A stretch of 64,000 nt of DNA from Novosphingobium huizhouense (GTDB lineage Bacteria; Pseudomonadota; Alphaproteobacteria; Sphingomonadales; Sphingomonadaceae): the NCBI RefSeq assembly GCF_020179475.1, contig NZ_JAILXZ010000002.1, positions 248,001 to 312,000 on the forward strand. Reading direction: 5' to 3'. Shown here piece by piece: positions 8,300 through 31,979 of the stretch. Each line of letters starts with the position of its first letter. The stretch's first letter is position 1. The notes below the pieces were generated by a model that searched no databases, was not told the origin of the DNA, and worked only from the letters and a program-made list of their open reading frames with translations. The position numbers and the translations under genes are program-made.

Positions 8300-8333
8300 C
8301 AACCAGCCATAACGTTACGGGAGATTTGCGGCC

Positions 8334-9701
8334 ATGAGCCTGCCGAAAGTGTGCATCATCGGCGCCGGGTGTTCCGGCTTCACCACCGCCAAGCGGCTCA
8401 AGGACTACGGCATTCCGTTTGACATCTACGAAGCCTCGGACGACATCGGCGGCAACTGGTACTACAACAACCCCAACGGGGTTTCGTCCTGCTACCAGAG
8501 CCTGCACATCGATACCTCGAAGTGGCGGCTGGCGTTCGAGGACTATCCGGTGCCGGCCGACTGGCCGGACTATCCGCACCATGCACAGCTGCTGCAATAC
8601 TTCCACGATTACGTCGACCACTTCGGCCTGCGCCCGTCGATCCGCTTCAACACGCGGGTGGAGAAGGCAAAGCGGCTTTCGGGCGGCGGCTGGGAGGTGA
8701 CCCTGTCGACCGGCGAGACGTTACGTTACGACGCGTTGGTGGTGGCGAATGGCCATCACTGGGCGGCGCGGATCCCTGAGTATCCGGGGCACTTCGACGG
8801 GCCGCAGATCCATTCGCACCACTATCGCACCCCGTTCGAGCCGGTGAACTGCATCGGCAAGCGCGTGCTCGTGGTCGGGCTCGGCAATAGCGCGATGGAT
8901 ATCGCCAGCGAGCTGTCGCAGCGGCCGATGGCGCAGCGCCTGTTCGTTTCGGCGCGGCGCGGCGTGTGGATCTTCCCGAAGTACTATCGCGGGCAGCCGC
9001 TCGACAAGAACCCGGCCCCGGCGTGGATGCCCAAGAGCCTGCGCCAGTGGCTTGGATCGCGGATGATCAAGAACCTCGTCGGCCGGATGAGCGACTACGG
9101 CCTGCCCGAGCCCGAGATCGAACCGTTCGAGAGCCACGGCACCGTGTCGGGCGAGTTCCTGCTGCGCGCAGGATCGGGCGACATCGTGATGCGCCCCGGC
9201 ATCGAGCGGCTCGACGGCAACGCGGTGGTGTTCACCGACGGCACGCGCGAGGAGATCGACGTGATCGTCTGGGCGACGGGCTACGACATCAAGTTCCCGT
9301 TCTTCGACGAGCCTTCGTTCTGCGCCGATGCCGACAACCGTCCGCCGCCGCTCTACAAGCGGATCATGAAGCCCGAGGTGCCCGACCTGTTCTACATGGG
9401 CCTTGCGCAGCCGCTGCCGACGCTGGTCAACTTTGCCGAGCAGCAGTCGAAACTGGTCGCGGCCTACCTCGCGGGGCAATACGCGCCGCCGTCCGCCGAC
9501 GAGATGCACCAGGTGATCAAGGCGGACGAGGAATTCTACACCGGCAGCTATTACCAGGCGCGCCGGCACACCATCCAGCTGGACTTCGACCACTACGTCC
9601 GCGCGCTCAGGAAAGAGCTGGAACGCGGGGCGAAGCGGGCGGCGGCGAAAGGCAATGCGCTGCCCGTCCCAGCGCGGGCGGCGGTCGCCGAAGCGGCCTG
9701 A
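8334..9701 (+). CDS. Flavin-containing monooxygenase
   Basis: A 455-residue FAD/NADPH monooxygenase of the FMO class. The FAD-binding GxGxxG is at the N terminus (IIGAGCSGFTTAKRL). The FMO fingerprint F-x-G-x3-H-x3-Y occurs as FDGPQIHSHHY around residue 152, and the second nucleotide fold is VLVVGLGNSAMDIA. The ATG-type motif IVWATGYDIKFPF follows near residue 315. Such enzymes oxygenate N, S or ketone substrates. It follows the P450 by 34 bases with a GGGAG ribosome site, and the gap carries one CGTTACG heptamer. The substrate is unknown; pairing with a P450 suggests sequential oxidation of one compound. Confidence 0.9.
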   Translation: MSLPKVCIIGAGCSGFTTAKRLKDYGIPFDIYEASDDIGGNWYYNNPNGVSSCYQSLHIDTSKWRLAFEDYPVPADWPDYPHHAQLLQYFHDYVDHFGLRPSIRFNTRVEKAKRLSGGGWEVTLSTGETLRYDALVVANGHHWAARIPEYPGHFDGPQIHSHHYRTPFEPVNCIGKRVLVVGLGNSAMDIASELSQRPMAQRLFVSARRGVWIFPKYYRGQPLDKNPAPAWMPKSLRQWLGSRMIKNLVGRMSDYGLPEPEIEPFESHGTVSGEFLLRAGSGDIVMRPGIERLDGNAVVFTDGTREEIDVIVWATGYDIKFPFFDEPSFCADADNRPPPLYKRIMKPEVPDLFYMGLAQPLPTLVNFAEQQSKLVAAYLAGQYAPPSADEMHQVIKADEEFYTGSYYQARRHTIQLDFDHYVRALRKELERGAKRAAAKGNALPVPARAAVAEAA

Positions 9702-9717
9702 CCGCCTTCGCCAAAAA

Positions 9718-9756: not shown

Positions 9757-9769
9757 CGTAACGTGACGG

Positions 9770-11293
9770 TTATTCGGCGGCTTCGAGCACCTCGGCCGCG
9801 GCGGGCTGGTTGTCGTACCAGAATTCCGGTCCATCGAGGTCGATCGCGGGGATCGCGTCCTTTTCGGCCCAGTAGTTCTGGTTGTGGCGCCACACTTCGT
9901 TGTCGCCGCGCTTGGGCAGCTTGTCGAGATCGCGGATCAGGTAGTTCGGGTTGAAGTTCTCGGTCTCGATCCAGGGCAGGATTTCCATGTCCTTGTCCTC
10001 CGGCCGCAGCTTGACTTCGACCTTGCGGGCGCCGCGTTCATCCATGTGGTGCAGCAGGCGGCAGACGAAATCGCCGAGCATGTCGACGCGCAGGGTCCAC
10101 GAGGCGCGGAAGTAGCCGAACACCCACAGCATGTTGGGAACGCCGGTGAACATCATGCCGCGGTACGTAACGGTGTCGCCCCAGTTGATCTTCTGCCCAT
10201 CGACCTCGAACGGGATGTCGCCCAGGACCTTGAGGTTGAAGCCGGTGCAGGCGACGATGATGTCGCCGTCGACCGCCTCGCCCGAGCTGACGACGAGGCC
10301 GGTCTCGGTGAAGTGGTCGATGGTGTCGGTGACCATCGTGACCTTGCCCTGCGCGGCGAGCTGGAACAGGTCGGCATCGGGGCAGAACGCGAGGCGCTGC
10401 TGCCACGGGCGGTACTTGGGCGTGAAGTGCGGCTCGAACTGGAAATCCTCGCCGACATAGGCGCGGACCAGCGCGCGCAGTTCCTCGACGACGACGTCGG
10501 GCTCCTCGACGCAGCGCTTGTCCATCACCGCCTGGTCATGCATCACCTGCATGCGCACGATGCGGTGCACGGTCGGCTCGTCGACCCCGATCTCGCGCAG
10601 CCGGTCGGCCAGTTCGTTCTGGTTGGGGTGGCAGAAGAAGTAGGTGGGTGAGCGCTGCACGACCGTTACGTGCGCCGCCTTCTGGGCGAAGGCGGGGACC
10701 ACGGTGGCGGCGGTCGCGCCCGAGCCGATCACGACGATGCGCTTGCCTTCGTAGTCGATGTTCGGATCCCACAGCTGGGCGTGGACGAAGCGGCCCTTGT
10801 AGGCATCGAGGTTCTTCGCTTGCCATTCGGGCGGAATGTAGGGCGTCTCGTGGTCGTAGTAGCCCTGGCACATCCACAGCAAGGTGGCGGTGAAGACGTG
10901 GGACTGCCCGTCTTCGGTGCGTGCCGTAACGGTCCACAGGTTGTCCGCGCTCGACCACGAACAGCCGGTGATGGTGTGGCCGTAGCGGATGTGCTGGCCG
11001 ATGCCGTTTTCCTCGATCACCTCGCCCATGTAGTCGAGGATCGCCTGCGCGCTGGCGATCGGCGCGTCGGTCCAGGGCTTGAAGCGATAGCCGAAGGTGT
11101 AGAGATCCGAGTCCGAGCGCACGCCGGGGTACTTGTGCGTTTCCCAGGTGCCGCCGAAGGTGTGCATCCGCTCGAGCACCGCGTAGGTCTTGCCCGGGCA
11201 CTGGTCCTGCAGGTGATAGGCCGATCCGATGCCGGAGATCCCTGCTCCGACGATCAGCACATCGAAATGCTGGGCCTGATCTGCTTGTGCCAT
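9770..11293 (-). CDS. Baeyer-Villiger-type flavoprotein monooxygenase (EthA-like)
   Basis: A 507-residue class B flavoprotein monooxygenase. It has an N-terminal FAD fold (VLIVGAGISGIGSAYHL) and GGTWETHKYPGVRSDSD, as in Baeyer-Villiger enzymes. The BVMO fingerprint appears as YKGRFVHAQLW, with Tyr in place of the first Phe. The NADP fold is RIVVIGSGATAATVVPA. It resembles EthA-like enzymes, which insert oxygen next to ketones or oxidise thio groups. It is convergent with the FMO and divergent from crtY, with which it shares a 225-base upstream region. Substrate unknown. Confidence 0.88.
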   Translation of the reverse strand: MAQADQAQHFDVLIVGAGISGIGSAYHLQDQCPGKTYAVLERMHTFGGTWETHKYPGVRSDSDLYTFGYRFKPWTDAPIASAQAILDYMGEVIEENGIGQHIRYGHTITGCSWSSADNLWTVTARTEDGQSHVFTATLLWMCQGYYDHETPYIPPEWQAKNLDAYKGRFVHAQLWDPNIDYEGKRIVVIGSGATAATVVPAFAQKAAHVTVVQRSPTYFFCHPNQNELADRLREIGVDEPTVHRIVRMQVMHDQAVMDKRCVEEPDVVVEELRALVRAYVGEDFQFEPHFTPKYRPWQQRLAFCPDADLFQLAAQGKVTMVTDTIDHFTETGLVVSSGEAVDGDIIVACTGFNLKVLGDIPFEVDGQKINWGDTVTYRGMMFTGVPNMLWVFGYFRASWTLRVDMLGDFVCRLLHHMDERGARKVEVKLRPEDKDMEILPWIETENFNPNYLIRDLDKLPKRGDNEVWRHNQNYWAEKDAIPAIDLDGPEFWYDNQPAAAEVLEAAE

Positions 11294-11518
11294 ATCGCTC
11301 TCTCCGGTCGGTTATCGCGTGATAGCGGCGTTGTGCCGTCTGCGTTGTCTAGGACACCTTGACCAATATCAAATCGAAACCGGATTCGGCAGGCATTTTC
11401 GTTGACCGAGTAAAAAACCGCATCGAGCCCTCGCCGGCCCTGCCCTTTGGTGCCCGCGCGCCACCCCGCGGCAAACCCGCAGTTGCGCACTTCGGCGCTT
11501 GTCCCTAACGCCGGGACG
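11294..11518. promoter_or_regulatory. Divergent control region between the BVMO and crtY
   Basis: This 225-base gap contains the upstream regions of the minus-strand monooxygenase and the plus-strand carotenoid operon. It is AT-richer than its flanks around 11355-11420. An imperfect palindrome TTGACCAATATCAA (about 11359) and a TTGACC at about 11402 are candidate promoter or operator parts. A reliable -10 cannot be placed. A GTG at 11447, in frame with crtY, is considered too far upstream. Confidence 0.35.
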
Positions 11519-12718
11519 ATGAGCGCGCGGCCCTGTGACATCGCCATTCTCGGCGGCGGCCTTGCCGGGGGCCTGATCGCGCTCGCGCTCGCGCGGCACC
11601 GCCCCGACCTTTCGCTGCTGCTGACCGAGCAGGACACCCATTTCGGCGGCAACCACGTCTGGTCGTTCTTCGGCAGCGACGTCGGCCGCGACGGGCGCGC
11701 GCTGCTCGCAGACGCGGTCGAGGCGGCCTGGCCCGGCTACGAGGTGCGGTTTCCCGCCTTCGAACGCGCGCTCGGCACCAGCTACTATGCGATGACCTCC
11801 GAGCGGTTCGACGCCGCCCTGCGCGCCGCCCTGCCCGCGAGCGCCCTGCTGACCGGCGCGCGGGTGCTTGCCGCCGATGCGCGCTCGGCAACGCTCGCCG
11901 ACGGCACGCAGATCGCTGCGCGCGCCGTGATCGATGCCCGCGGCATCCGCAATCTCGGTCATCTCACAGGCGGTTGGCAGAAGTTCGTGGGACGGCGCCT
12001 GAAATTGTCGGTGCCGCACGGGGTCGACCGCCCGATCATCATGGATGCGACGGTCGAGCAGCTCGACGGCTACCGCTTCGTCTATGTCCTGCCCTTCGCC
12101 GAGGACGAGATCTTCATCGAGGACACCTATTATTCGGACAGCGCGACGATCGACCAGGACGTCCTGAGCCAGCGGATCGACGACTATGCGCGGCGGCGCG
12201 GATGGACGATCGCCGGGGTCGTGTCCGAGGAGCAGGGCGTGCTGCCGGTGGTCTCGGGCGGCGACTTCGACGCTTTCTGGCGCTCGACCGGCAAGGACAT
12301 GGCCCGCGCCGGGGCGCGCGCCGGGCTGTTCCATGCGGTGACCAGCTATTCGCTGCCCGATGCGGTGCGCTATGCCCTGGCGGTGGTGCGCCGCGCCGAC
12401 TGCGGCGGCGAGGAGCTTGCCAGGTTTTCCGAAGATTACGCCCGAAAGCACTGGAAACGTTCAAGCTATCTGCGCCAGCTGACGGCCATGCTCTATGGCG
12501 CGGCGGCGCCGGTCGACCGCTACAAGGTGCTCGAGCGGTTCTACCGGCTCGACGAGAAGCTGGTCGAGCGGTTCTACGCCGGGCGCAGCACCGCCTTCGA
12601 CAAGATCCGCATTCTTTCCGGCAAGCCTCCCGTTCCCGTCCTCGCCGCGATGCGCGTGCTCGGCGGGTTCGGCGACAAGCCCCAGGCGCTCTCGCTCGCC
12701 GGCACACGCACGAAATGA
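11519..12718 (+). CDS. crtY: Lycopene beta-cyclase CrtY
   Basis: A 399-residue flavoprotein cyclase that closes the beta-ionone rings of lycopene, giving beta-carotene. The N-terminal dinucleotide fold (IAILGGGLAGGLIALAL) is followed by the HFGGNHVWSFF motif typical of CrtY. The catalytic-region motif FIEDTYYSDS occurs around residue 200. The ATG at 11519 places the GGGLAGG fold at the usual distance. An upstream GTG would add 24 unrelated residues. It is first in an operon with crtI 11 bases downstream. Confidence 0.93.
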   Translation: MSARPCDIAILGGGLAGGLIALALARHRPDLSLLLTEQDTHFGGNHVWSFFGSDVGRDGRALLADAVEAAWPGYEVRFPAFERALGTSYYAMTSERFDAALRAALPASALLTGARVLAADARSATLADGTQIAARAVIDARGIRNLGHLTGGWQKFVGRRLKLSVPHGVDRPIIMDATVEQLDGYRFVYVLPFAEDEIFIEDTYYSDSATIDQDVLSQRIDDYARRRGWTIAGVVSEEQGVLPVVSGGDFDAFWRSTGKDMARAGARAGLFHAVTSYSLPDAVRYALAVVRRADCGGEELARFSEDYARKHWKRSSYLRQLTAMLYGAAAPVDRYKVLERFYRLDEKLVERFYAGRSTAFDKIRILSGKPPVPVLAAMRVLGGFGDKPQALSLAGTRTK

Positions 12719-12729
12719 GGGACACGACG

Positions 12730-14208
12730 ATGAAGAAGGCCTGCGTGATCGGTGCAGGGTTCGGCGGGCTCGCGCTCGCCATCCGCCTGCAGTCGGCGGG
12801 GATCGAGACGACGGTGGTCGAGGCGCGCGACAAGCCCGGCGGCCGCGCCTACTTCTGGGAGCGCGACGGCTTCACCTTCGACGCCGGGCCGACGGTGATC
12901 ACCGATCCGCCGTGCCTCAGGGAACTGTGGGCGCTCAAGGGCCACCGTATGGAGGACGACATCGAACTGATGCCGGTGATGCCGTTCTACCGGCTCAACT
13001 GGCCCGACGGCACCAACTTCGACTATTCGAACGACGAGACCGGCCTGCGCGACGAGATCGCCAAGGTAAATCCGCGCGACGTTGCGGGTTACGAAGCATT
13101 CCTCGACTACTCCGCAGGTGTTTTCGAGGAAGGCTACGTCAAGCTCGGCGCGGTTCCGTTCCTCGATTTCGCGAGCATGATCAAGGCCGCGCCCGCGCTC
13201 GCCAAGTACCAGGCGTGGCGCTCGGTCTACTCGATGGTCTCGAAGTACATCGAGAGCGAGAAGCTGCGCGAGGCGTTCAGCTTCCACACGCTGCTGGTCG
13301 GCGGCAACCCGATGAAGACCAGCTCGATCTACGCGCTGATCCACAAGTTGGAGAAGGACGGCGGGGTGTGGTGGGCCAAGGGCGGCACCAATCGCCTGAT
13401 CGATGCGATGGTGCGCCATTTCCAGCGCCTCGGCGGCACGGTGCAGCTGGGCGATGCGGTGACGAAGATCCATTCGCTCGGCAACCGCGTCACCGGGCTC
13501 GAGACGAAGAGCGGCTGGCAGGGCAGCTTCGACGCGATCGCCTCGAACGGCGACCTGATCCACACCTACCGCGACCTGCTGGGCGACAACACCCATGCGG
13601 CGCGCCAGGCCAAGGCGTTGAAGCGCAAGAAGTTCTCGCCCAGCCTGTTCGTCGTCCACTTCGGCATCGAAGGCACCTGGCCGGGCATCCCGCACCACAT
13701 GATCCTGTTCGGACCGCGCTACAAGGGCCTGCTCGACGACATCTACAGCCACGGCGTGCTGCCCGAGGACTTTTCGATCTACCTCCACCATCCGACCGTG
13801 ACCGATCCGTCGATGGCGCCCGAGGGGATGAGCACGTTCTACGCGCTGGTCCCCGTCGCCAACATGGGCAAGCTGCCGGTCGACTGGAACGAGATCGGTC
13901 CGCTGCTCGAAAAGCGCATCCTCGACGAAGTCGGTCGCCGGCTGATTCCCGACATCCACAGCCGTATCGTAACGAAGTTCCACTACGCGCCCAGCGACTT
14001 CGCCACCGACCTTTCGGCGCACCTCGGCAGCGCCTTCAGCCTCGAGCCGGTGCTGACGCAGAGCGCCTGGTTCCGCGCGCACAACCGCGACGACGAGATC
14101 CCCAACCTCTACCTGGTCGGCGCGGGAACCCATCCAGGCGCCGGGATTCCCGGTGTCGTCGGCAGCGCCAAGGCGACCGCCAAGATCATGCTCGAGGACC
14201 TCTTGTGA
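12730..14208 (+). CDS. crtI: Phytoene desaturase CrtI
   Basis: A 492-residue FAD enzyme that desaturates phytoene to lycopene at the membrane. The N-terminal motif is VIGAGFGGLALAIRL, then GGRAYFWERDGFTFDAGPTVI. The C-terminal carotenoid-oxidase signature appears as YLVGAGTHPGAGIPGVVGSA. AGGGA lies just ahead of the ATG at 12730; an ATG five codons upstream is less well placed. The last codons overlap the GTG start of the LOG-family gene, so the two are translationally coupled. One CGTTACG heptamer (reverse orientation) lies at 13968. Confidence 0.96.
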   Translation: MKKACVIGAGFGGLALAIRLQSAGIETTVVEARDKPGGRAYFWERDGFTFDAGPTVITDPPCLRELWALKGHRMEDDIELMPVMPFYRLNWPDGTNFDYSNDETGLRDEIAKVNPRDVAGYEAFLDYSAGVFEEGYVKLGAVPFLDFASMIKAAPALAKYQAWRSVYSMVSKYIESEKLREAFSFHTLLVGGNPMKTSSIYALIHKLEKDGGVWWAKGGTNRLIDAMVRHFQRLGGTVQLGDAVTKIHSLGNRVTGLETKSGWQGSFDAIASNGDLIHTYRDLLGDNTHAARQAKALKRKKFSPSLFVVHFGIEGTWPGIPHHMILFGPRYKGLLDDIYSHGVLPEDFSIYLHHPTVTDPSMAPEGMSTFYALVPVANMGKLPVDWNEIGPLLEKRILDEVGRRLIPDIHSRIVTKFHYAPSDFATDLSAHLGSAFSLEPVLTQSAWFRAHNRDDEIPNLYLVGAGTHPGAGIPGVVGSAKATAKIMLEDLL

Positions 14209-14786
14209 AGCGCATCGCGGTCTATTGCGGCTCGGCCTCGCCCGCCGACGGGCGTTACGTGGCGCTGGCGCGGACGGTCGGCGCGACGCTGGCGGCGCGC
14301 GGGATCGGGGTGGTCTATGGCGGCGGCCGGCTCGGGCTGATGGGCGCGGTCGCGGCCGGCGCGCTCGAGGCGGGCGGCGAAGTGATCGGCGTGATTCCTG
14401 AGGCGCTCGACCGGGCCGAAGTCGCCAACCACGATTGCACGCAGCTCCACATCGTCGGCACGATGCACCAGCGCAAGCAGGCCTTCACCGACCTGTCCGA
14501 CGGATTCCTGACGCTGCCCGGGGGCGTTGGCACGATGGACGAGCTGTGGGAAGCGGTGAGCTGGGCGCAGCTCGGCTATCATGCCAAGCCGGTCGGCCTG
14601 CTCAACGCCTTCGGCTTCTACGACGAGCTGCTGGCGTTCAACCGGCGGATGATCGAGACCGGCTTCGTGCGCGAGGCGCACGCCGGGATCCTGATCGCCG
14701 AACCCGATCTCGACCTGCTGCTGGCGCGGATGGCGGCGCACGTGCCGCACCGACCGATCTTTGCGATGTCGCGCGACGACCTGTAA
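14205..14786 (+). CDS. LOG-family phosphoribohydrolase (TIGR00730 type)
   Basis: A 193-residue Rossmann-like protein with the LOG signatures GGGRLGLMG and PGGVGTMDELWE. Proteins of this family release free cytokinin-like bases from nucleoside 5'-monophosphates, or hydrolyse other nucleotides such as AMP. The GTG start overlaps the crtI stop (GTGA), and crtB follows after 11 bases, so it is embedded in the carotenoid operon. It has no known step in carotenoid synthesis. The position may be simple hitchhiking or reflect a nucleotide-salvage role. Confidence 0.9.
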   Translation: MKRIAVYCGSASPADGRYVALARTVGATLAARGIGVVYGGGRLGLMGAVAAGALEAGGEVIGVIPEALDRAEVANHDCTQLHIVGTMHQRKQAFTDLSDGFLTLPGGVGTMDELWEAVSWAQLGYHAKPVGLLNAFGFYDELLAFNRRMIETGFVREAHAGILIAEPDLDLLLARMAAHVPHRPIFAMSRDDL

Positions 14787-14797
14787 CGTCGCCGGCG

Positions 14798-15772
14798 ATG
14801 GAAGACCGAAGTAGCCTCGTCGCCGCGGCGCGCGATTCGATCCGCAAGGGCTCGAAAAGCTTTGCCGCGGCCAGCGCGCTGTTCGACCGGGAGACGCGCG
14901 AGCGGGTCTGGCTGCTCTACGCCTGGTGCCGGCGCTGCGACGACCTGATCGACGACCAGGACCATGGCGGCGCGCTCGGGTCCGCTGACGGCGTTACGGA
15001 ACGGCTCGCGGCGGTGCGCGAGAAGACTGCGCTCGCCTTTGCCGGCATGCCGGCGGGCGACCCGGCGTTCGACGCGCTCGGGCTGGTCGCGCGCGAGACC
15101 GGCCTCACGCTGGAGATGGCGGGCGCAGTGATCGACGGCTTCGCGCTCGATGCCGCCGACTGGCAGCCGCGCAGCGAAGCCGACCTGATGCGCTACTGCT
15201 GGCACGTTGCCGGCGCGGTCGGCGTGATGATGGCGGTGGTGATGGGCGTCGCCCCGCACGACGAAGACACGCTCGACCGCGCCTGCGACCTCGGCCTTGC
15301 TTTCCAGCTCGCCAATATCGCGCGCGACCTCGCCGAGGACGACGCCGCGCAGCGCTGTTACGTACCGCTCGAATGGCTGGCGGAAATGGACATTCCGCCG
15401 GGCGAGCAGATGAAGCCGGTCCACCGCAAGGCGATGGCCCTGCTCGCCCGGCGGATGTGCCGGATGGCGCAGGCGCACGAGTGTTCGGCGCGGATCGGCG
15501 CGGGGCGGCTGCGGCCGCGCCAGCGCTGGGCGATCCTCGCCGCGGCGGGGATCTACGGCGAGATCGCGCGCGAGGTCGAGCGGCGCGGAAGCGCGGCGTG
15601 GGACAGCCGCACCGTCGTGAGTAACGCGCGCAAGCTGCAGTGGATCGCGCGCGCCGGCCTGCGCGCGCTGCGCCCGGTGCCGCGCGGCTGCCACGAGGGC
15701 GCGCTGCTGCGACGGCACAACCGGCGTACGCTTGTTGCACATGCAACCCGCCAGGGCCTGCCCACGCCCTGA
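14798..15772 (+). CDS. crtB: Phytoene synthase CrtB
   Basis: A 324-residue prenyl-condensing enzyme that joins two geranylgeranyl diphosphates to phytoene. The two Asp-rich motifs are visible: CDDLIDD near residue 48, and DLAED in [15 protein letters not shown] around residue 175. The family pattern [12 protein letters not shown] is intact. The ATG at 14798 is 11 bases after the LOG stop. With crtI and crtY this gives beta-carotene; no crtE, crtZ or crtG is in the window, so later hydroxylation must be encoded elsewhere. The 3' end carries a GTTGC-N4-GCAAC inverted repeat (15734-15747) that may belong to the next gene's control region. Confidence 0.94.
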
Positions 15773-15860
15773 CCCCGCGGAGGCGATGCGGGGGCGATGC
15801 GGGTTCCTTGACCGGGCGGCGATTATTGGTTACATAAGAAACCAAATTGGGAGAGACGCG
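15773..15860 (+). promoter_or_regulatory. Candidate operator upstream of the dioxygenase gene
   Basis: The inverted repeat TTGGTT (15826-15831), N8, AACCAA (15840-15845) is followed at once by a third half-site in CCAAATTGG (15842-15850). The block is strikingly AT-rich and ends 11 bases before the ATG, where GGGAGAG gives the ribosome site. Such placement suits a repressor of the dioxygenase operon. The regulator is not encoded nearby. Confidence 0.45.
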
Positions 15861-16958
15861 ATGGCCGACCTGTTCGACAATCCGCTGGGGCTCGACGGCT
15901 TCGAATTCGTCGAGTTCTGCGCGCCCGAACCTGGCGTGCTCGAGCCGGTGTTCGCCGCGATGGGCTTCACGCTGGTCGCGCGGCATCGCTCGAAGGCCGT
16001 TACGTTGTGGCGGCAGGGCGGGATCAACCTGATCGCCAACTACGAGCCGAAGAGCCCGGCGGCCTGGTTCGCGGCCGAGCACGGCGCTTCGGCCTGCGGC
16101 ATGGGTTTTCGCGTGCGCGATGCCCGCGCCGCCTACGAGCAGGCGCTGGAGCGCGGGGCCGAGCCGGTCGAGGTGCGCACCGGGCCGATGGAGCTGCGCC
16201 TGCCGGCGATCCGCGGCATCGGCGGCTCGATCATCTACCTGATCGACCGTTACGATACCGGGGCCGGCGAGCTTTCGATCTACGACATCGACTTCGTCTG
16301 GGAGCCGGGGGTAGAGCGCCACCCGGTGGGCGCCGGGCTGCAGGTGATCGACCATCTGACGCACAACCTCTATGGCGGTCGCATGGCGCACTGGGCCGCG
16401 TTCTACGAGCGGATCTTCAACTTCCGCGAGATCCGCTACTTCGACATCAAGGGCGAATACACCGGCCTCACCAGCCGAGCGATGACCGCGCCCGACGGCA
16501 AGATCCGGATTCCGCTCAACGAGGAAGGAAAGGCAGGCGGCGGGCAGATCGAGGAATACCTGCGCGCCTACAACGGCGAGGGCATCCAGCACATCGCCTT
16601 TGCCTGCGACGACCTGCTGGCGACCTGGGACAAGCTGGCCGCGCTCGGCGCGCCGTTTGCCCCCGCCCCGCCCGTTACATACTACGAAATGCTCGAGGAG
16701 CGGCTGCCCGGCCACGGCGAGCCGGTCGAAGAGCTGCAGAAGCGCGGCATCCTGCTCGACGGCTCGACCGAGCAGGGCGATCCGCGGCTGCTGCTGCAGA
16801 TCTTCTCGCAGACGATGATCGGGCCGGTGTTCTTCGAATTCATCCAGCGTAAGAAGGACGAGGGCTTCGGCGAGGGCAACTTCACCGCGCTGTTCAAGTC
16901 GATGGAAGCCGACCAGATCCGGCGCGGCGCGCTCAAGGTCGAGGAGCCGGCGGCATGA
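15861..16958 (+). CDS. hppD: 4-hydroxyphenylpyruvate dioxygenase
   Basis: A 365-residue two-domain VOC protein, the normal length for bacterial HPPD, which converts 4-hydroxyphenylpyruvate to homogentisate with non-heme Fe(II). The C-terminal domain shows the iron ligands in their usual settings: His in [14 protein letters not shown], His in [11 protein letters not shown], and Glu in FFEFIQRK. The family tail is [22 protein letters not shown]. No homogentisate dioxygenase is in the window. The stop overlaps the start of the second VOC gene by four bases. Confidence 0.9.
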
Positions 16959-17512
16959 CCGCGGCGGCGCATCCGGTGCAGCTGGGCGGCATCCACCACG
17001 CCGCCTACCGCTGCCGCGACGCGAAGGAGACGGTGGACTGGTACGAGCGCATGCTCGGCATGCGTTACGTGACCGCCTTCGCCGAGGATCACGTGCCCTC
17101 GACCGGGGCCTACGATCCCTACATGCACGTGTTTCTCGATGCCGGGAACGGCAACGTGCTGGCTTTCTTCGAGCTGCCGAATCAGCCTGCGATGGGTCGC
17201 GATCCCAATACCCCCGAATGGGTCCAGCACCTCGCCTTCCGCGTCGCGGACATGGATGCGCTGCTCGCCGCCAAGGCACATCTCGAGGCGAACGGCGTCG
17301 ACGTGCTCGGCCCGACGCACCACGGGGTGTTCCAGTCGATCTATTTCTTCGACCCCAACGGCCACCGGGTGGAACTGGCGACGGACATCGGCACGAGCGA
17401 GCAGTACGCCGAGCTGGCCCGCGTCGCCGGCCCCATGCTCGAGGAATGGTCGCAGACCAAGAAGGCCCCGCGCCACGCCGACTGGCTCCACACGCATAAC
17501 CGCAAGGACTAG
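16955..17512 (+). CDS. VOC-family dioxygenase/glyoxalase-like protein
   Basis: A 185-residue single-domain VOC protein translated in overlap with HPPD (ATGA). Candidate metal ligands are His in [10 protein letters not shown], His in [11 protein letters not shown], and Glu in GHRVELATD, the arrangement of glyoxalase and extradiol enzymes. The short C-terminal tail ([22 protein letters not shown]) is unlike glyoxalase I. The substrate is unknown. Coupling to HPPD suggests action on a tyrosine-derived or related aromatic metabolite; this is inference. Confidence 0.8.
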
Positions 17513-17591
17513 GCGCAAGCACTGGGCGCAAGGACTAGGCTGGACACGCGTTACGTGGCATCTTCCGCGCCGGGCGACGGGAGATGACGCG

Positions 17592-19063: not shown

Positions 19064-19078
19064 GCCCCCGGCGCAACG

Positions 19079-22677: not shown

Positions 22678-24198
22678 TTACGCCCCGATGCCGGCCGCCG
22701 CGAGCAGCGCTTCGGTCGACGGATCGAAGCCGTCGCCGCCGCCTGCATCGATCTGCTTGGCGATCGCCTTGCCCAGTTCGACGCCGAACTGGTCGAACGG
22801 GTTGATGCCCAGCAGCATCGCCGAAACGAAGGTGCGGTGCTCGTGGAACGCGATCAGCGCGCCGAGCGTGCCCGGCGTCAGGTCGTCGCACAGGATCGTC
22901 GCCGAAGGACGATCGCCCGGGTAAGCGCGCGCGCCATCTTCGCTCGCCTTGCCCGCCATCAGCGCCGCCCCTTGCGCGAAGCAGTTCGACAGCAGGATCT
23001 GGTGGTGGAGCGGATCGAGGTCGTGCCCCGGAACCTTGACCGCAAGAAAATCGACCGGGATCAGGTGCGTGCCCTGGTGGAGCAGCTGGAACACCGCGTG
23101 CTGGGCATCGGTTCCGACCCCGCCCCAGGTGATCGGCGCCGAGGGCCGCGCGAGCGGCTCGCCCTGTGCCGTAACGCGCTTGCCGTTCGATTCCATCTCG
23201 AGCTGCTGGAGATAGTCGGGCAGCAGCTTGAGCCGCTCGTCGTAGGCGAAGACCGCGCGGGTCTGGCACCGCTTCGCCTGGGTGTAGAACAGGTCGGCGA
23301 AGGCTGCGCGGACCACAACATTGGCGCCATAGGGGGCTTCGATGAAGTGCGTGTCGATCGCGGCGGCGCCGTCGAGGAATTCGGCGAAGGCGTCCCAGCC
23401 CAGTGCGAGCGCGACCGGAAAGCCGATCGACGACCACAGCGAGTAACGCCCGCCGACCGTTTCGCTGAACGGCAGCACGCGGGTTTCGTCGACGCCCCAT
23501 TCGACCGCCTTGTCGGGGCTCGCGGTGAGCGCCACCACGCGGCCGTAGGGATCGGCGACCCCGCCCTGGCGCAGCCAGTCGAGCGCGGAGGCGGCGTTGG
23601 TCATCGTCTCGGTGGTGGTGAAGGTCTTGGAGGCAAGCGCGACCAGCGTGGTTTCGGGATCGCACGCCTTCATCGCCGCTTCGAGCGCGCAGCCGTCGAT
23701 GTTCGAGACGACATGGACCGCGACCTTGGCGTCGTCGCGGGCGAGCGCGTCGATCGCCAGCGCGGGCCCGAGCGCCGAGCCGCCGATGCCGATGTGGATC
23801 AAGCTCTTCACCTCGCCGAGAAGGCCTTCGTGGATCGCCTCGACCAGCCCCTTCATCCGCGCGTGCAGCGCCTCGGCCTCGACCACCGCGGCAGGCGATC
23901 CGATCCCGCGTTCGGCGCTGTGCTGGGCGGCGCGGCCCTCGGTGTTGTTGATCGGCTCGCCGGCGAACAGCGCGTCGCGCTTGCCATCGAGGTCCATCGC
24001 CTTCGCAATGCGGCCCATGACGTCCTCGATCGCCGGCGTCAGATGGGTCTTGCTCCAGTCGAATCGAATCGGACCGCCGGGGACGGCAAGTTCCGAGCAG
24101 TAGCGCGACAGCCGGTCCGCCCCGCCGAAAAGCGCGGAAAGGCTTGGCGTTTCGAGGCTTTCGAGTTCGCGCCAGAGCGCCTGTGCCGGGTCCGCCAT
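22678..24198 (-). CDS. pgi: Glucose-6-phosphate isomerase
   Basis: A 506-residue PGI interconverting glucose 6-phosphate and fructose 6-phosphate. It has the family stretches IGIGGSALGPAL, VLPFSETVGGRYSLWSSIGF with the catalytic Arg-containing GGR, and GTHLIPVDFLAVK. The signature for the active-site Lys region is near the C terminus (FDQFGVELGKAIAKQI). The ATG at 24198 faces the lepB gene divergently. The HNH gene follows within four bases. One CGTTACG overlaps its stop codon. Confidence 0.97.
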   Translation of the reverse strand: MADPAQALWRELESLETPSLSALFGGADRLSRYCSELAVPGGPIRFDWSKTHLTPAIEDVMGRIAKAMDLDGKRDALFAGEPINNTEGRAAQHSAERGIGSPAAVVEAEALHARMKGLVEAIHEGLLGEVKSLIHIGIGGSALGPALAIDALARDDAKVAVHVVSNIDGCALEAAMKACDPETTLVALASKTFTTTETMTNAASALDWLRQGGVADPYGRVVALTASPDKAVEWGVDETRVLPFSETVGGRYSLWSSIGFPVALALGWDAFAEFLDGAAAIDTHFIEAPYGANVVVRAAFADLFYTQAKRCQTRAVFAYDERLKLLPDYLQQLEMESNGKRVTAQGEPLARPSAPITWGGVGTDAQHAVFQLLHQGTHLIPVDFLAVKVPGHDLDPLHHQILLSNCFAQGAALMAGKASEDGARAYPGDRPSATILCDDLTPGTLGALIAFHEHRTFVSAMLLGINPFDQFGVELGKAIAKQIDAGGGDGFDPSTEALLAAAGIGA

Positions 24199-25924: not shown

Positions 25925-25972
25925 TATACCGGGCGCAGAACAGCTCCTCCAAAAGAACGGAATACACGTAAC

Positions 25973-26866
25973 GTGACGGAAAAGTGCGGCCTCGTCGCCG
26001 TGATCGGCGCCCCCAACGCGGGCAAGTCGACCCTCGTCAACGCGCTCGTCGGCCAGAAGGTCGCGATCGTCTCGGCCAAGGCGCAGACGACACGCGCGCG
26101 GTTGATGGGCATCGCGCTCGAAGGCGAGACGCAGATCATCCTCGCCGATACGCCGGGGCTGTTCGAGCCCAAGCGCCGGCTCGACCGCGCGATGGTCAAC
26201 GCGGTGTGGGAAGGCGCATCGGAAGCCGACGCGATCCTGCTGGTGGTCGATGCGCGCAAGAAGAAGCGCGACTATCTCGAACCGATCCTGGCGAGCCTGA
26301 AGGACCGGCCCGAGCGCAAGATCCTCGTGCTCAACAAGGTCGACGCCACCCCGAAGGAACCGCTGCTGGTCGCGGCTGAAGACCTCGTGCCGCTGGGCAA
26401 CTTCGACGAGGTGTTCTTCGTTTCGGCGCTGACCAACGACGGCGTGGCGGAACTCAAGACCCGGCTCGCCGCGCTGATGCCCGAAGGCGCGTGGCACTAT
26501 CCCGAGGACCAGGTGTCGGACGCCTCGGAGCGCCTGCTTGCCGCGGAGATCACCCGCGAGCAGATCTATCGCCAGCTCCACGACGAGCTGCCCTACGACA
26601 GCGCGGTGCGGCCCGAGAGCTACACGCACCGCAACGACGGCTCGGTCGAGATCCACCAGCAGATCGTCATCGCGCGCGACAGCCAGCGCGGGATCGTGCT
26701 CGGCAAGGGCGGGTCGAAGCTCAAGTCGATCGGCGAAGCGGCGCGCAAGGAGCTGGCCGAGCTGCTGGGCGTGAAGGTCCACCTCTTCCTCCACGTCAAG
26801 GTCGAGGAGAACTGGGCCGAGAGCAAGGAAATCTATGAGGAAATCGGGCTCGACTGGGTCAAGTGA
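25973..26866 (+). CDS. era: GTPase Era
   Basis: A 297-residue ribosome-assembly GTPase. It shows G1 (GAPNAGKST, residues about 11-19), G3 (DTPG), G4 (NKVD) and the C-terminal KH domain (IVLGKGGSKLKSIGEAARKEL), which binds 16S rRNA. The start is GTG at 25973; a CGTTACG heptamer in reverse orientation (25967-25973) ends on its first base. It follows rnc by 48 bases. recO, often next in other bacteria, is absent here. Confidence 0.97.
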   Translation: MTEKCGLVAVIGAPNAGKSTLVNALVGQKVAIVSAKAQTTRARLMGIALEGETQIILADTPGLFEPKRRLDRAMVNAVWEGASEADAILLVVDARKKKRDYLEPILASLKDRPERKILVLNKVDATPKEPLLVAAEDLVPLGNFDEVFFVSALTNDGVAELKTRLAALMPEGAWHYPEDQVSDASERLLAAEITREQIYRQLHDELPYDSAVRPESYTHRNDGSVEIHQQIVIARDSQRGIVLGKGGSKLKSIGEAARKELAELLGVKVHLFLHVKVEENWAESKEIYEEIGLDWVK

Positions 26867-26941: not shown

Positions 26942-27709
26942 ATGATCGACAATGCGCCCTTACTGCTGATCGGCTGCACGCTGCTGATCGCGATGATGGG
27001 CTGCTATGGCCTGGGCTTCGTGCTGCACGCGGTGCTGGCGCGCGGCCGCGAGGACACCTCGACCAGCGACGAGAGCTACGTCCTGTCGGGCGTGTTCGGC
27101 CTGCTCGCGCTGCTGATGGCCTTCGCCTTCAGCCTGGCGATCGGCCGTTACGAGACGCGTCGCCAGCTGGTGATCGACGAAGCCAATGCGATCAGCACGA
27201 TGGCGAGCCGGCTCGGCCTGCTCGACGAACGCCAGCGCGGCGCGCTGATGCTGCCGCTGGCGACCTATGCCCGCGCCCGCGCCGAAACCGGACTGATCGA
27301 CGACGAGGTGCGCTGGGAGAACGGCGTCCGTGCGGCAGCGAAGCTGTGCGACGGGTTCGGCGACCTGATGTTCGCAACGTTGCGGTCGATGCCGCCCGAT
27401 ACGCGCGGCCCCTCGCTGACGCAGGCCTACAACGAGATGTGCGATCTCGCGACCTCGCGCCACGCCGCGCGCAAGGCGCGCCTGCCGGTCGAAGTGCTGA
27501 TGCTGCTCGCGCTCTACTGCTGCGCCGGCGCGGCGATGCTCGGCTATACGCTGTCGGGCACGGGCAAGCGGCACCTGCTCGCCTCGACGATCTTCTTCGG
27601 TCTGCTCGCAAGCGCCTTCGTCACGATCCTCGACCTTGACCGGCCGCGCGGCGGGGCGATCCTGGTGCCGCAGGACGAACTCGAGACGGTCGCCAGGTCG
27701 ATTGCATGA
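26942..27709 (+). CDS. DUF4239 (bestrophin-like) membrane protein
   Basis: A 255-residue inner-membrane protein. Two N-terminal TM helices (LLLIGCTLLIAMMGCYGLGF and VFGLLALLMAFAFSLAIG) are followed by the DUF4239 hallmark RRQLVIDEANAISTMASR. A soluble helical part follows, then two C-terminal helices (VEVLMLLALYCCAGAAMLGY and TIFFGLLASAFVTILDL) ending in DRPRGG. The family is related to bestrophin channels, but function is unproven. It stands 75 bases after era. Confidence 0.82.
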   Translation: MIDNAPLLLIGCTLLIAMMGCYGLGFVLHAVLARGREDTSTSDESYVLSGVFGLLALLMAFAFSLAIGRYETRRQLVIDEANAISTMASRLGLLDERQRGALMLPLATYARARAETGLIDDEVRWENGVRAAAKLCDGFGDLMFATLRSMPPDTRGPSLTQAYNEMCDLATSRHAARKARLPVEVLMLLALYCCAGAAMLGYTLSGTGKRHLLASTIFFGLLASAFVTILDLDRPRGGAILVPQDELETVARSIA

Positions 27710-27785: not shown

Positions 27786-29333
27786 ATGTCCGATCTTCGC
27801 CGCAGCGCCGCTGCGGTTCTGCGCCTTGCGGCCGACGACTTGAGACCCGCCGCCGGAGCGACCGCGCCTGCCCCCGGCGTCGCCCTGGTGCGGACCACGC
27901 TGGTTTCGGCGGCGCTGTTCGCGATCCTCGCGCTCGCCGTCCACGCGGTACAGCTCGGCAATCCGGTGCTGCACGTCGACGAGGAATTCTACCTGCTCGT
28001 CGCGCACGAGATGCGGGCCGGCGCGATCCCGTTCGTCGATATCTGGGATCGCAAGCCGCTCGGGCTGTTCCTGCTCTACCGCCTGTTCCTGCTCGCCCCG
28101 GGGGACGGCGTGCTGACCTACCAGCTGGCGGGGATCGCCAGCTGCGCGGCGACCGCGCTGGTGATCGAGCGGCTGGCGCGCGAGATCGCCGACCCGCCCG
28201 CTGCACGCCTCGCCGGCGTCGCCTACGTCCTGTTCATGCCGGTGTTCTGCTTCGGCATCGGCCACGCTCCGGTGTTCTACGACCTGCCGATAGCGCTGGC
28301 GGCGCTGTGCAGCCTGCGCGCCTGGCGGCGCCCGGACGCGACCGGACTGCTGGCCGAGGGCGCCAAGGCGATGGCGCTGGTCGGGCTTGCCGCCCAGATC
28401 AAGTACACCGTGGTGTTCGAAGGCGCCGGGTTCGGCCTCGTCCTGCTGTCGCGCGCCGCGGCGCTGCGGCTGCCGCCGGGCCGCCTGCTGCGTTACGCGA
28501 CGACCTGGTGCGGCCTCGCGCTCGCCCCGACGCTCGGCGTGTGCATCGCCTATGCCGCCACCGGGCACGAAGCGCAGTTCCTCCAGAGCAACTTCGTGTC
28601 GATCTTCGCCCGGCGCGCCGACGGCATGGCCTCGTGGACGCGCCTCGCCAGCGAGTTGGCGGCGCTGACGCCGTTCTGGATCGCGCTCGCGCTGGGCGCG
28701 AGGGCACGGCTTGCGGGCGATGGCCGCGAAGCGCTGGTGCTGTTTCGCTGGTGGGCGGCGGTCGCCTTCGCCGCGTTCCTCGCCTTTGGGTCGTGGTACG
28801 ACCATTACGTTACGCCGGTGCTGGTGCCGCTCTGCGTGCTGGTCGCGCCTTCGCTGTCGCGCACGATGCGGGGGGCGACCGTCTGGCGCATCGCCTTGCT
28901 CGGCTTCGGCCTTGCCGCCTGCATGGTCGTGCTGCTCGACAACATCCGCCGCCACGGCACGCGCGCGCAGGCCGAGCGGATCGCCGGCGCGATCGAGGAG
29001 GAGCTGCACGGCGGCTGCGCCTTCGTGTTCGACGGGGAGCCCGCGTTCTACCGGATGTCGGGGAGCTGCCTGCCGAGCCGCTATGCCTTTCCCAACCACC
29101 TCAACACCTGGACCGAGGCGGAGGCGCTCGACGTCGACCCGAACCTCGAGGTCGCGCGGATCATGCTGGCGCATCCCGATGTCGTGGTCACCGCCGAGTG
29201 GTGGCCGTTCTACCTGCCAAACTGGGAGACGCGGGCGATCGTCGCCGACTTCCTGCGGCGCGACTACGAGCACTATGCGAGCCTGAAGATGGGCACGCAC
29301 CAGTACGGGCTGTGGCGCCGCCGGCGGACGTGA
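27786..29333 (+). CDS. Polytopic GT39/ArnT-like glycosyltransferase
   Basis: A 515-residue membrane protein with around ten hydrophobic helices. A short cytoplasmic leader precedes TM1 (LVSAALFAILALAVHAVQL). The first periplasmic loop has HVDEEFYLLVAHEM, the Asp-Glu motif expected for a GT-C transferase using a polyprenyl-linked sugar, and then IWDRKPLGLFLLY. A soluble C-terminal part of about 130 residues follows. The ATG at 27786 is chosen because GGAG lies seven bases upstream. Sugar and acceptor are unknown. It is convergent with topA. Confidence 0.75.
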   Translation: MSDLRRSAAAVLRLAADDLRPAAGATAPAPGVALVRTTLVSAALFAILALAVHAVQLGNPVLHVDEEFYLLVAHEMRAGAIPFVDIWDRKPLGLFLLYRLFLLAPGDGVLTYQLAGIASCAATALVIERLAREIADPPAARLAGVAYVLFMPVFCFGIGHAPVFYDLPIALAALCSLRAWRRPDATGLLAEGAKAMALVGLAAQIKYTVVFEGAGFGLVLLSRAAALRLPPGRLLRYATTWCGLALAPTLGVCIAYAATGHEAQFLQSNFVSIFARRADGMASWTRLASELAALTPFWIALALGARARLAGDGREALVLFRWWAAVAFAAFLAFGSWYDHYVTPVLVPLCVLVAPSLSRTMRGATVWRIALLGFGLAACMVVLLDNIRRHGTRAQAERIAGAIEEELHGGCAFVFDGEPAFYRMSGSCLPSRYAFPNHLNTWTEAEALDVDPNLEVARIMLAHPDVVVTAEWWPFYLPNWETRAIVADFLRRDYEHYASLKMGTHQYGLWRRRRT

Positions 29334-29360
29334 CGTTACGCCCGCCGAAAGCGGCGCGGA

Positions 29361-31979
29361 TCAGGACTCGTCGCCTTTCGCAGCCTTGGCCGCGGCCTTG
29401 GGCTTGGCCGATGCCTTCTTCGCGGCGGGCTTCTTTGCCGCAGGCTTCTTCTCGGCTCCGTCCTTCGCGGCGGCCTTCTTGGCGGGCGCCTTCTTGGCCG
29501 GAGCCTTCTTCTTGCCCTTGGCCGGGCCCTTGGCGGCGCGCGCGTCGATCAAGGCGATGGCCTCTTCTGCCGTCAGCGCCTCGGGCTGCTTGTCGCGCGG
29601 AAGCGTCGCATTGGTGGTGCCGTCGGTGACGTAGGGACCGTAGCGGCCGGCCATCAGCTTGATCTCGCCGCCCGAGGTCGGATGAGGCCCCAGCAGCTTG
29701 AGCGGCTCGGCCGCGGCGCCGCGCGCCGGGCGTCCGCCGGCGGCGGCCTCGGCCAGCTTGACCACCGCGGCGTTCATCCCGGTCTCGAACACCTCGGCGG
29801 TCGCCTTGAGCCGCGCGTACTTGCCATCATGGGCGAGATATGGCCCGTAACGCCCTATGCTCGCGGTGATCGGCTTGCCACTTTCGGGGTGCATGCCGAT
29901 CTCGCGCGGGAGCGAGAGCAGCTTGAGCGCCCATTCGAGGTCGAGCTCGCCGATATCCTTTGGGATCGAGGCGCGCTTGGCCTCCTTGCCCTCGCCCAGC
30001 TGGATGTAGGGGCCGAAGCGGCCCGCGCGCCGGGTGACCTCGAGGCCGCTGACCGGATCCTTGCCGAGCCCCGCATCCTCGCCGCCGTCCTCCGCCCCGC
30101 CGGGCTGCGCGAACTTGCGGGTGTACTTGCACTCGGGATAGTTCGAGCAGGCGACGAAGGCGCCGTACTTGCCGCCGCGTAGCGCAAGGCGGCCCGCCTG
30201 GCACTTGGGGCACAGGCGCGGATCGCTGCCGTCGGCCTTGGGCGGGAACAGGTAATCCGAAAGGAACGCGTCGAGCTCGGCGGTGACCTCGCTCGGCTTC
30301 TTTTCCATCACCTCGTCGGACTTGGGCTTGAAATCGCGCCAGAAGGCTTCGAGCACCTGCTTCCACGCGGCGCGACCACCCGAGACGTCGTCGAGTTCGT
30401 CCTCCATGCCGGCGGTGAACTGGTATGCGACGTAACGCTCGAAGAACCGCTCGAGGAAGGCGGTCAGCAGGCGGCCGCTCTCTTCGGCGAAGAAGCGGTT
30501 CTTCTCGGTGCGGACGTAGTTGCGGTCCTTGAGCACCTGGAGCGTGGCGGCATAGGTCGAGGGCCGGCCGATGCCGAGCTCCTCGAGCCGCTTGACCAGG
30601 CTCGCCTCGGAATAGCGCGGCGGCGGCTGGGTGAAGTGCTGGGTGGCCTCGACGCCGCGCCTGGCCGGGACATCGCCCGCGACCATGGCCGGAAGCAGGC
30701 CGCTGTCGTCGTCGTCGCCCTCGGCCTTCTGGTCGCGGCCTTCCTCGTAGACCGCGAGGAAGCCGGGGAACTTGACCACCTGGCCGGTGGCGCGCAGCTC
30801 GTGCCGGCCGGTGCCCTCGCGCAGCGTGACGGTGGTGCGCTCGAGGCTGGCCGAAGCCATCTGGCTCGCCATCGCGCGCTTGTAGATCAGGTCGTAGAGC
30901 CGCGCCTCGTCGCCCGCGCCGTGCCGGTCCTTGGCGAAGTCGGTGGGCCGGATCGCCTCGTGCGCTTCCTGCGCGTTCTTGGCCTTGGTCTCGTAGTGGC
31001 GGGGCTTTTCGGGCAGGTAGTGGCCGTCGTAGCGGTCGCTGATCGCCTTGCGCGCCGCCGAGATCGCGCTCGGGTCCATCTGCACGCCGTCGGTCCGCAT
31101 GTAGGTGATCGCGCCCGCCTCGTAGAGCGTCTGCGCCACGCGCATGGTGTGGCTGGCCGAAAAGCCGAGCTTGCGCGCCGCTTCCTGCTGGAGGGTCGAG
31201 GTGGTGAACGGCGGCGAGGGGTTGCGACGGGTCGGGCGCGTCTCGACATCCTCGACGCGGAACGTCGCCGCTTCGACCACGGCCTTGGCGCGAAGGGCCA
31301 CGCCCTCCTCGCTCAGCGACAGCCTTTCAAGCTTTTGCCCGTCGAACTTCACGAGCCGGGCGAGGAATTCGGTGCCGCCCTTCTCCATCCTGGCGACGAC
31401 CGACCAGTATTCCTGCGCGGTGAACGCCTCGATCTCGCGCTCGCGCTCGACGATCAGGCGCAGCGCGACCGACTGGACGCGTCCCGCCGACCGCGCGCCG
31501 GGCAGCTTGCGCCACAGCACCGGCGAGAGAGTGAAGCCGAACAGGTAATCGAGCGCGCGCCGGGCGAGGTAGGCGTCGATCAGGTCCTGGTCGAGCTCGC
31601 GCGGGCGCTTCATCGCCTCGGTCACCGCCTGCTTGGTGATGGCGTTGAAGGTGACGCGCTCCACTTCCTTCGGAAGCGCGCGACGTTTGCCCAGCAACTC
31701 CCTGACGTGCCAGGAAATCGCCTCCCCTTCGCGATCGGGGTCGGTGGCCAGGATCAGGCGATCGGCCTGCTTCGCGGCGTCGGTGATCGCCTTCACCCGC
31801 GCCTGCTTGTCGCCGTAGAGCTCCCAGTCCATCGCGAAGTCCTCGTCGGGGCGGACCGAGCCGTCCTTGACCGGAAGGTCGCGGATGTGGCCGTAGGATG
31901 CGAGGACCTGGAAGCCGGGACCGAGATACTTCTCGATGGTCTTGGCCTTGGCCGGAGATTCGACGATGACAAGCTGCAT
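29361..31979 (-). CDS. topA: DNA topoisomerase I TopA
   Basis: An 872-residue type IA topoisomerase that relaxes negative supercoils. The Toprim domain starts at residue 2 (LVIVESPAKAKTIEKYLG) with the DPDREGEAISWH acidic motif. The active-site Tyr is in ITYMRTDGVQM. A zinc-finger repeat (CPKCQAGRLALRGGKYG, CSNYPEC) and further C-terminal repeats (GRFGPYIQLG, GRYGPYLAHDG, GRYGPYVTDG) follow. The last 55 residues are a Lys/Ala/Pro-rich tail with repeated PAKK, typical for sphingomonads. A perfect palindrome lies just upstream. Confidence 0.97.
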   Translation of the reverse strand: MQLVIVESPAKAKTIEKYLGPGFQVLASYGHIRDLPVKDGSVRPDEDFAMDWELYGDKQARVKAITDAAKQADRLILATDPDREGEAISWHVRELLGKRRALPKEVERVTFNAITKQAVTEAMKRPRELDQDLIDAYLARRALDYLFGFTLSPVLWRKLPGARSAGRVQSVALRLIVEREREIEAFTAQEYWSVVARMEKGGTEFLARLVKFDGQKLERLSLSEEGVALRAKAVVEAATFRVEDVETRPTRRNPSPPFTTSTLQQEAARKLGFSASHTMRVAQTLYEAGAITYMRTDGVQMDPSAISAARKAISDRYDGHYLPEKPRHYETKAKNAQEAHEAIRPTDFAKDRHGAGDEARLYDLIYKRAMASQMASASLERTTVTLREGTGRHELRATGQVVKFPGFLAVYEEGRDQKAEGDDDDSGLLPAMVAGDVPARRGVEATQHFTQPPPRYSEASLVKRLEELGIGRPSTYAATLQVLKDRNYVRTEKNRFFAEESGRLLTAFLERFFERYVAYQFTAGMEDELDDVSGGRAAWKQVLEAFWRDFKPKSDEVMEKKPSEVTAELDAFLSDYLFPPKADGSDPRLCPKCQAGRLALRGGKYGAFVACSNYPECKYTRKFAQPGGAEDGGEDAGLGKDPVSGLEVTRRAGRFGPYIQLGEGKEAKRASIPKDIGELDLEWALKLLSLPREIGMHPESGKPITASIGRYGPYLAHDGKYARLKATAEVFETGMNAAVVKLAEAAAGGRPARGAAAEPLKLLGPHPTSGGEIKLMAGRYGPYVTDGTTNATLPRDKQPEALTAEEAIALIDARAAKGPAKGKKKAPAKKAPAKKAAAKDGAEKKPAAKKPAAKKASAKPKAAAKAAKGDES

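Follow-up and report, generated by a model that had tools for sequence, protein, structure and literature searches.

The DNA analysed here (hereafter the window) is a 64,000-nucleotide stretch of Novosphingobium huizhouense, a 22-kb part of which carries a dense cluster of the heptamer CGTTACG. This word is a palindrome with an A/T centre (CGT-W-ACG), and its two orientations represent one site. The cluster spans a gene block shared across species (g8 to g19), which includes carotenoid (crt) genes and a gor-like gene, and continues through pgi (g21), the genes for signal peptidase (g22) and RNase III (g23), and era (g24) into topA. Signal peptidase and RNase III were assigned by a protein family scan, pgi and era were named from inspection of the sequence, and the coding or non-coding status of the sites follows the gene calls made in this analysis. 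The exact count gave 30 copies on either strand of the window, 28 within 8313-30437 and the remaining two at 43522 and 51263, as had been counted by eye in an earlier interpretation of the letters alone (the sequence-only reading). The features are given below in window coordinates; relatives that keep a site are named by our genome (G) and locus (L) handles, where G000 is N. huizhouense itself and G014 is N. nitrogenifigens.

8313..30437, no strand: CGTTACG cluster, 28 sites (exact match, genome count, 7-mer scan, codon shuffle)
9770..22277, no strand: core block shared across species, g8 to g19, with most of the highest site densities over 16 genomes
9770..22277, products in g8-g19: FMO-like, crtY, crtI-like, LOG-like, crtB, glyoxalase-type dioxygenases
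9770..22277, further products in g8-g19: cytochrome b561-like, molybdopterin oxidoreductase, epimerase, SDR, gor-like
8313..8319, +: site, intergenic
8719..8725, +: site giving a TTA codon, overlapping 8724..8730
8724..8730, +: site, kept in G047
9757..9763, -: site, intergenic, kept in G047
10166..10172, -: site, kept in G003
10664..10670, +: site, kept in G014
10925..10931, -: site, kept in G047, G003, G014
13968..13974, -: site in crtI-like gene, kept in G009, L102, L108, L109, L110
14253..14259, +: site in g11, the most widely kept (10 of 11 cluster-bearing relatives compared)
14992..14998, +: site in crtB, kept in G045, G014
15998..16004, +: site
16248..16254, +: site, kept in G033
17063..17069, +: site
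17549..17555, +: site, intergenic
18770..18776, +: site, kept in G047
19702..19708, -: site, kept in G047
20738..20744, -: site, kept in G047
21336..21342, +: site in gor-like gene, kept in G014, L102, L108, L109
21672..21678, +: site in gor-like gene, kept in G047, G014, L102, L108, L109, L110
22676..22682, +: site at gene boundary
23170..23176, -: site in pgi, kept in G014
25967..25973, -: site directly before era start, kept in G047
27146..27152, +: site, kept in G047, G033
28491..28497, +: site
28808..28814, +: site
29334..29340, +: site at gene end
29846..29852, -: site in topA, kept in G003
30431..30437, -: site in topA, kept in G003

The cluster is real. Over the whole genome (3,672,189 bases) CGTTACG occurs 130 times (76 + 54), and 8313-30437 is the sole dense cluster among the matches listed. 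The rate beyond the cluster predicts 0.62 copies per 22 kb, and the 28 observed correspond to a 45-fold excess (Poisson P 2.6e-36, with the cluster borders set post hoc). Dinucleotide-shuffled versions of the window contained 4.2 copies on average and 9 at most (100 shuffles) versus 30 in the real sequence. When all 7-mers of C22, the 791-kb contig that holds the window, were scanned for clustering within 15 kb, CGTTACG took first place (log10 P -22.4), and the best non-shifted competitor was the G+C-rich word GGCGGCA (-14.5). In 160 kb of N. nitrogenifigens it was also first (-39.9), with the next unrelated word at about -9. On the remainder of C22, 32 copies were observed, and the expected number was 27-31 under Markov orders 2-5 and 47 under order 1. 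The sequence-only reading had proposed a genome-wide count against Markov or codon-shuffled backgrounds; the genome count gave the 45-fold local excess, and the Markov expectations show a near-expected count on the rest of C22. Based on the shuffles, the 7-mer scan and the Markov and codon-shuffle expectations, chance and base composition are ruled out as the cause of the cluster.

The word is strict in N. huizhouense. None of its single-letter variants was comparably enriched, the largest reaching 9.7-fold on 2 sites versus 30-fold on 28 for CGTTACG. The 3′ flank weakly prefers T-n-A-C-G (T 43%, n, A 52%, C 63%, G 48%), as calculated from 188 sites of 12 genomes or loci with orthologous sites counted too. 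The complete 12-base pattern is seldom found: each of 16 genomes has 0 to 5 matches. The two orientations within the clusters number 18/10 in N. huizhouense, 18/16 in N. nitrogenifigens and 12/10 in G047, without a strong strand bias. Gaps shorter than 150 bp between sites are too few in N. huizhouense (P 0.035) and in N. nitrogenifigens (P 0.0012).

Several results indicate that selection acts on the DNA rather than on the encoded proteins, as the sequence-only reading had suspected. Under synonymous-codon shuffling, the cluster genes of N. huizhouense hold 22 sites versus about 1.6 expected (maximum 5 in 300 shuffles), while the other genes of the window hold 2 versus 1.2. The excess was reproduced in the cluster genes of each of the four genomes shuffled (22 versus 1.65 in N. 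huizhouense, 30 versus 3.15 in N. nitrogenifigens, 18 versus 2.57 in G047 and 8 versus 0.64 in G045), and the other genes fetched gave 6 versus 5.1, 7 versus 10.2, 8 versus 6.4 and 6 versus 5.1, respectively. Codon bias or a single gene family as the cause is rejected by these controls, in agreement with the earlier argument that one gene family cannot explain sites. Six of the 28 sites, the number given before as intergenic, fall outside genes or across gene ends, that is, 6 per 1035 non-coding bases versus 22 per 21,565 coding bases (P 0.0015). With the four genomes pooled, 16 of 94 sites lie outside genes versus 7.6 expected (P 0.0035), and much of this excess comes from N. huizhouense. The overlapping pair at 8719-8730 indeed creates a TTA codon, of which there are three among 19,874 codons. 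These shuffles, the excess between genes and the recurrence in relatives described below together support the action of selection on DNA. Most coding sites do read CGTTACG on the coding strand (18 of 22), as had been claimed. However, this bias requires no functional meaning, because the core is palindromic but for its centre and only the CGTAACG orientation gives a stop, in one frame; the bias is at least partly a codon effect. A search with Rfam gave 0 matches at the gathering score in the window, and a known RNA element was set aside.

To assess the distribution of the cluster, 59 genomes of the genus (own included) were considered, 33 of which offered tens of kb of DNA at the locus, with short pgi loci left out. 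In addition, 80 loci were fetched, of which 6 under 10 kb were dropped from the motif count and 19 entered the crt/pgi comparison; L101, L106, L107 and L121 were taken as the same genomes as G033, G003, G015 and G014, and each was counted once. Nineteen Novosphingobium-group genomes have crt together with gor/pgi in the stretch that was fetched. Of these, 16 carry 6-38 sites in 20-45 kb, and the other three (G027, G015 and G046) have 2 sites each in 40 kb and 0 in the shared genes. Stretches with pgi but no crt contain 0-3 sites (20 of 20 genomes), and those with crt but no pgi contain 0-5 (13 of 13 loci). One of these 13 loci (L114) has g15-g18 at its right edge, so pgi may sit just beyond. 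Six or more sites were found in 9 of the 74 loci of at least 10 kb. The densest case is N. nitrogenifigens with 34 sites in 14 kb. Across g8 to g19, the density per gene over 16 genomes is 0.1-1.7 per kb, and g11 holds a site in 14 of 16. No site was found in g22 and g23 in 16 genomes and in g24 in 15 genomes, and thiC carries sites in 5 of 14 genomes. The recurrence spans sequences down to about 74% identity.

Conservation in related genomes, which the sequence-only reading had suggested testing, holds for the cluster (16 of 19) while individual sites turn over. Fourteen genomes, 11 of them cluster-bearing, were compared with N. huizhouense using the words CGNNNCG and CGWWWCG as controls. Retention was above the CGNNNCG control in 8 of the 11: in G047 (10/23), G003 (5/18), N. 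nitrogenifigens (7/17), L102 (4/11), L108 (4/8), L109 (4/11) and L110 (3/8), and at best marginally, about at the control, in G009 (2/12). It was 0/15, 0/17 and 0/8 in the three cluster-less genomes. This pattern suggests that a few sites are old, that at 14253 above all, and that most turn over while the cluster persists. In a six-protein tree of 25 genomes, G027 and G015 lie within the cluster-bearing group (support 100), on a branch that joins them to seven cluster-bearing genomes with support 81. Their nested position reads as a loss of the cluster; the placement of G046 is weakly supported (34-40). The 8-mer CGTTACGT forms one main genome cluster in G003 (9 of 31 in 19 kb) and in G033 (8 of 30 in 44 kb), and no main cluster of it was seen across the whole genomes of G027 and G046. 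A substitute CGTTACG cluster near the dif site was not found either (9 sites per 200 kb in G027, 12 per 240 kb in G046).

In N. huizhouense and three relatives, the locus lies close to the replication terminus. A dif element, TTCGATAATAATGATTATGTTAAAT, is located at C22:198392 of N. huizhouense, 58 kb from the cluster, and the 25 bases used for the search recur unchanged in G047 and G045. It resembles the published dif of N. aromaticivorans (PMC2731167). The near edge of the cluster is 9 kb from dif in G047, 58 kb in N. huizhouense, 63 kb in N. nitrogenifigens and 77 kb in G045; in N. nitrogenifigens it is on the opposite side of the conserved dif neighbourhood. The dif call is supported by the KOPS-like words GGGNAGGG: their strand counts are 49:7 left of dif and 0:4, 1:10, 0:5, 0:5, 2:12 and 3:27 in the segments to the right, and the polarity flips at dif in 6 of 6 genomes tested (N. 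huizhouense and five relatives). Since this flip is at dif and not at the cluster, convergence of replication forks at the cluster itself was rejected. The loci L108 and L109 are roughly 114 and 131 kb from candidate dif elements. In G027, the same block is about 600 kb from dif (if its 3.67-Mb main contig is circular), and its genes contain no site. An insertion splits the dif region of G046. In N. huizhouense, a prophage of about 40 kb (C22:206984-246824) lies between dif and the cluster and ends about 1.2 kb before the window; each of the 10 proteins scanned from it hit a phage family (integrase, portal, terminase, capsid, tail sheath, tape-measure and others), and it was not seen in the 120 kb fetched of G047.

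A strict palindrome that is concentrated at one locus, is inherited while single sites come and go, and exceeds the codon expectation resembles an array of protein sites. Based on these sequence patterns, we put at about even odds (a probability of roughly 0.5) that the CGTTACG sites are binding sites of one probably dimeric protein that would organise, bridge or anchor terminus-proximal DNA. A putative sequence-specific dimer would recognise the palindrome CGT-W-ACG, possibly with a weaker second contact to T-n-A-C-G on one side, and would load onto a terminus-proximal segment of some tens of kb. The loaded protein may form a local nucleoprotein patch that organises, bridges or anchors this DNA (one possible anchor being the division machinery), much as matS/MatP does, yet compact and dense. 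In N. nitrogenifigens, the enrichment is 3.7-fold for CGTCACG and 40-fold for two end variants, the latter on very few copies (4 against 0.1), so the putative protein may be slightly laxer there. Among the explanations offered by the sequence-only reading, the best fit is a signal for chromosome organisation or segregation, as the cluster is near dif in the four genomes in which its distance to a checked dif was measurable, although no binding protein was found and G046 has no cluster. The word macrodomain, also used there, is a large one for a patch of some tens of kb.

Escherichia coli has about 23 matS sites, and matS/MatP is similar in that a short near-palindrome is repeated many times around the terminus. 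In PMC7188993, matS is described as a 13-mer spread over 800 kb, whereas here 28 sites of a different word occupy 22 kb. As to confinement to the terminus, the trait of matS, the near edge of the cluster is 9-77 kb from dif in four genomes, but the cluster is offset from dif and absent from G046, and background sites occur genome-wide. MatP itself was rejected as the binder, as its profile PF06303 matched in 0 of 10 genomes, with a control match in E. coli. ZapT of Caulobacter crescentus is likewise alphaproteobacterial, terminus-associated and bound mostly in open reading frames (ORFs). It is described as a MerR-family protein encoded beside ihfA, with 10 chromatin immunoprecipitation (ChIP) peaks that lie mostly in ORFs, all but one within 1.3-2.2 Mb (PMC7188993). 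The difference is that no consensus motif is reported there for ZapT (PMC7188993), in contrast to the strict CGTWACG found here. With parS/ParB the array shares clustered palindromic sites for a chromosome-handling protein, which here is putative; parS was rejected, since the five GTTNCACGTGNAAC matches are all on contig C33, none is on C22, and the word is different. KOPS/FtsK also involves short words near dif, but the KOPS-like word is polar and flips at dif while CGTTACG has no strong strand bias. A strand-directed signal was rejected, as the clusters lie to one side of dif and yet have the two orientations at comparable frequencies.

Somewhat more tentatively, we suggest a hitherto undescribed, terminus-proximal "centromere-like" array: a strict CGTWACG, in one main compact cluster per chromosome, which may be bound by an alphaproteobacterial protein replacing MatP/matS and may decay when a rearrangement moves the locus off dif. 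A strict, dense array in culturable Novosphingobium would serve as bait for the putative protein, and natural strains with and without the cluster are a ready comparison. Among the literature matches listed, no paper ties CGTTACG to bacterial chromosome organisation, and on terminus organisation only the dif survey concerns Novosphingobium.

A number of observations weigh against a terminus-organising protein. The G046 locus, which has no cluster, is 127 kb from dif, or about 78 kb when the far side of the insertion is taken as reference. The array lies beside dif, off-centre, and the distance argument rests on few events that are tangled with descent. The 7-mer scans of G047, where CGTTACG is first by a narrow margin (-7.7 versus -7.6 for another word), and of G045, where it is third and a shifted form of it is first, do not singly set the word clearly apart. 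When an order-5 Markov background is derived from the very stretch under test, it predicts almost as many copies as are found, because CGTTACG then determines the 6-mer counts; at order 2 the expectation is 0.7-2.1. As a rough control, unrelated heptamers were counted in these 40-kb stretches of relatives and occur up to 15 times, so the smaller counts there (6-10) are weak taken singly. Regular spacing was not seen in the other seven site sets and is reversed (clumped) in G003, and the codon shuffles cover four genomes only. Retention is below the CGNNNCG control in G033 (3/25), G045 (1/16) and L103 (1/11), and the small CGWWWCG control (7-13 words) exceeds retention in 5 of 11 relatives (G047, G033, G009, G045 and L103). 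A binding protein was not found by the PF06303 profile in the ten genomes, nor was an autoregulated partner gene when paired sites were sought elsewhere in the genomes.

Among other explanations, the sites might serve a regulator or silencer that coats the carotenoid/redox block and controls its transcription. The high density over much of g8-g19, from crt to gor, in 16 genomes speaks for it. However, 22 of the 28 sites are inside coding sequence, sites also occur in pgi, topA and thiC, and no DNA-binding regulator family was recognised among 20 proteins of the region scanned (2 without any family). With only six sites at or between gene ends, the distribution also differs from that of a transcription-factor regulon with sites in promoters. 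Furthermore, the block is present with unchanged gene order in G027 and G015, and G046 has crt beside gor, all without sites, so the carotenoid block may merely be where the array sits; we regard such a regulator as unlikely. Still less probable is an orphan DNA methyltransferase that recognises CGTWACG, which would make the cluster a local epigenetic patch. Many methylase targets are strict palindromes with a W centre, like the 7-base word of N. huizhouense, but they are normally spread over the genome, CGTTACG is near expectation elsewhere on C22, and the extra T-n-A-C-G preference suits a binding protein better.

In Vibrio, crtS couples the second replicon to the chromosome, and by analogy the array might be a partition, copy-number or timing element of this kind. 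In several relatives, other contigs also contain dif-like matches (at most 3 mismatches), which leaves room for extra replicons; we give this reading a slim chance. A known nucleoid protein of the EbfC/YbaB type reading GTnAC is a long shot. The core does contain GTWAC, and Borrelia EbfC binds GTnAC, yet the same source reports Caulobacter YbaB as not sequence-dependent (PMC8581549). The strict outer C-G pairs and the W centre in N. huizhouense also exceed GTnAC, and GTnAC alone as the site was rejected, as variants with a changed outer C/G or with C/G at the centre do not reach a comparable enrichment there. It is just as improbable that the cluster has no function and arose by accident in the past, through codon use, a gene family or mutation. 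The turnover of sites and their absence from three genomes in two or more lineages speak for such an origin, but the codon-shuffle controls in four genomes speak against codon use, and the excess outside genes and the recurrence at about 74% identity also oppose it.

Some further observations concern the same genomes. Five parS-type sites of N. huizhouense, all GTTCCACGTGGAAC, are located at C33:400775-412835 and presumably mark the origin side. Relatives of the C22 prophage genes lie near the split dif region of G046. In the latter genome, 10 of 17 CGTTACGT sites fall within 0.5 Mb ending about at dif (C1:293-807 kb), a diffuse excess on the terminus side that was noticed post hoc. G027 has three-site micro-clusters of CGTTACGT at C1:1798064-1798461 and 2308322-2308897, the second near parS sites, and another locally clustered word, AATTGTCG/GACAATTA, near the terminus (C1:329-344 kb), which could be a repeat. 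In G033, whose main cluster is on C31, four CGTTACG occur in about 1.1 kb at C28:158090-159156 (L238), about 22 kb from a dif-like element. Finally, to the left of the cluster (690-1325 of the window), a Fic-domain protein is encoded beside a MazE-type antitoxin, both with relatives in G047.

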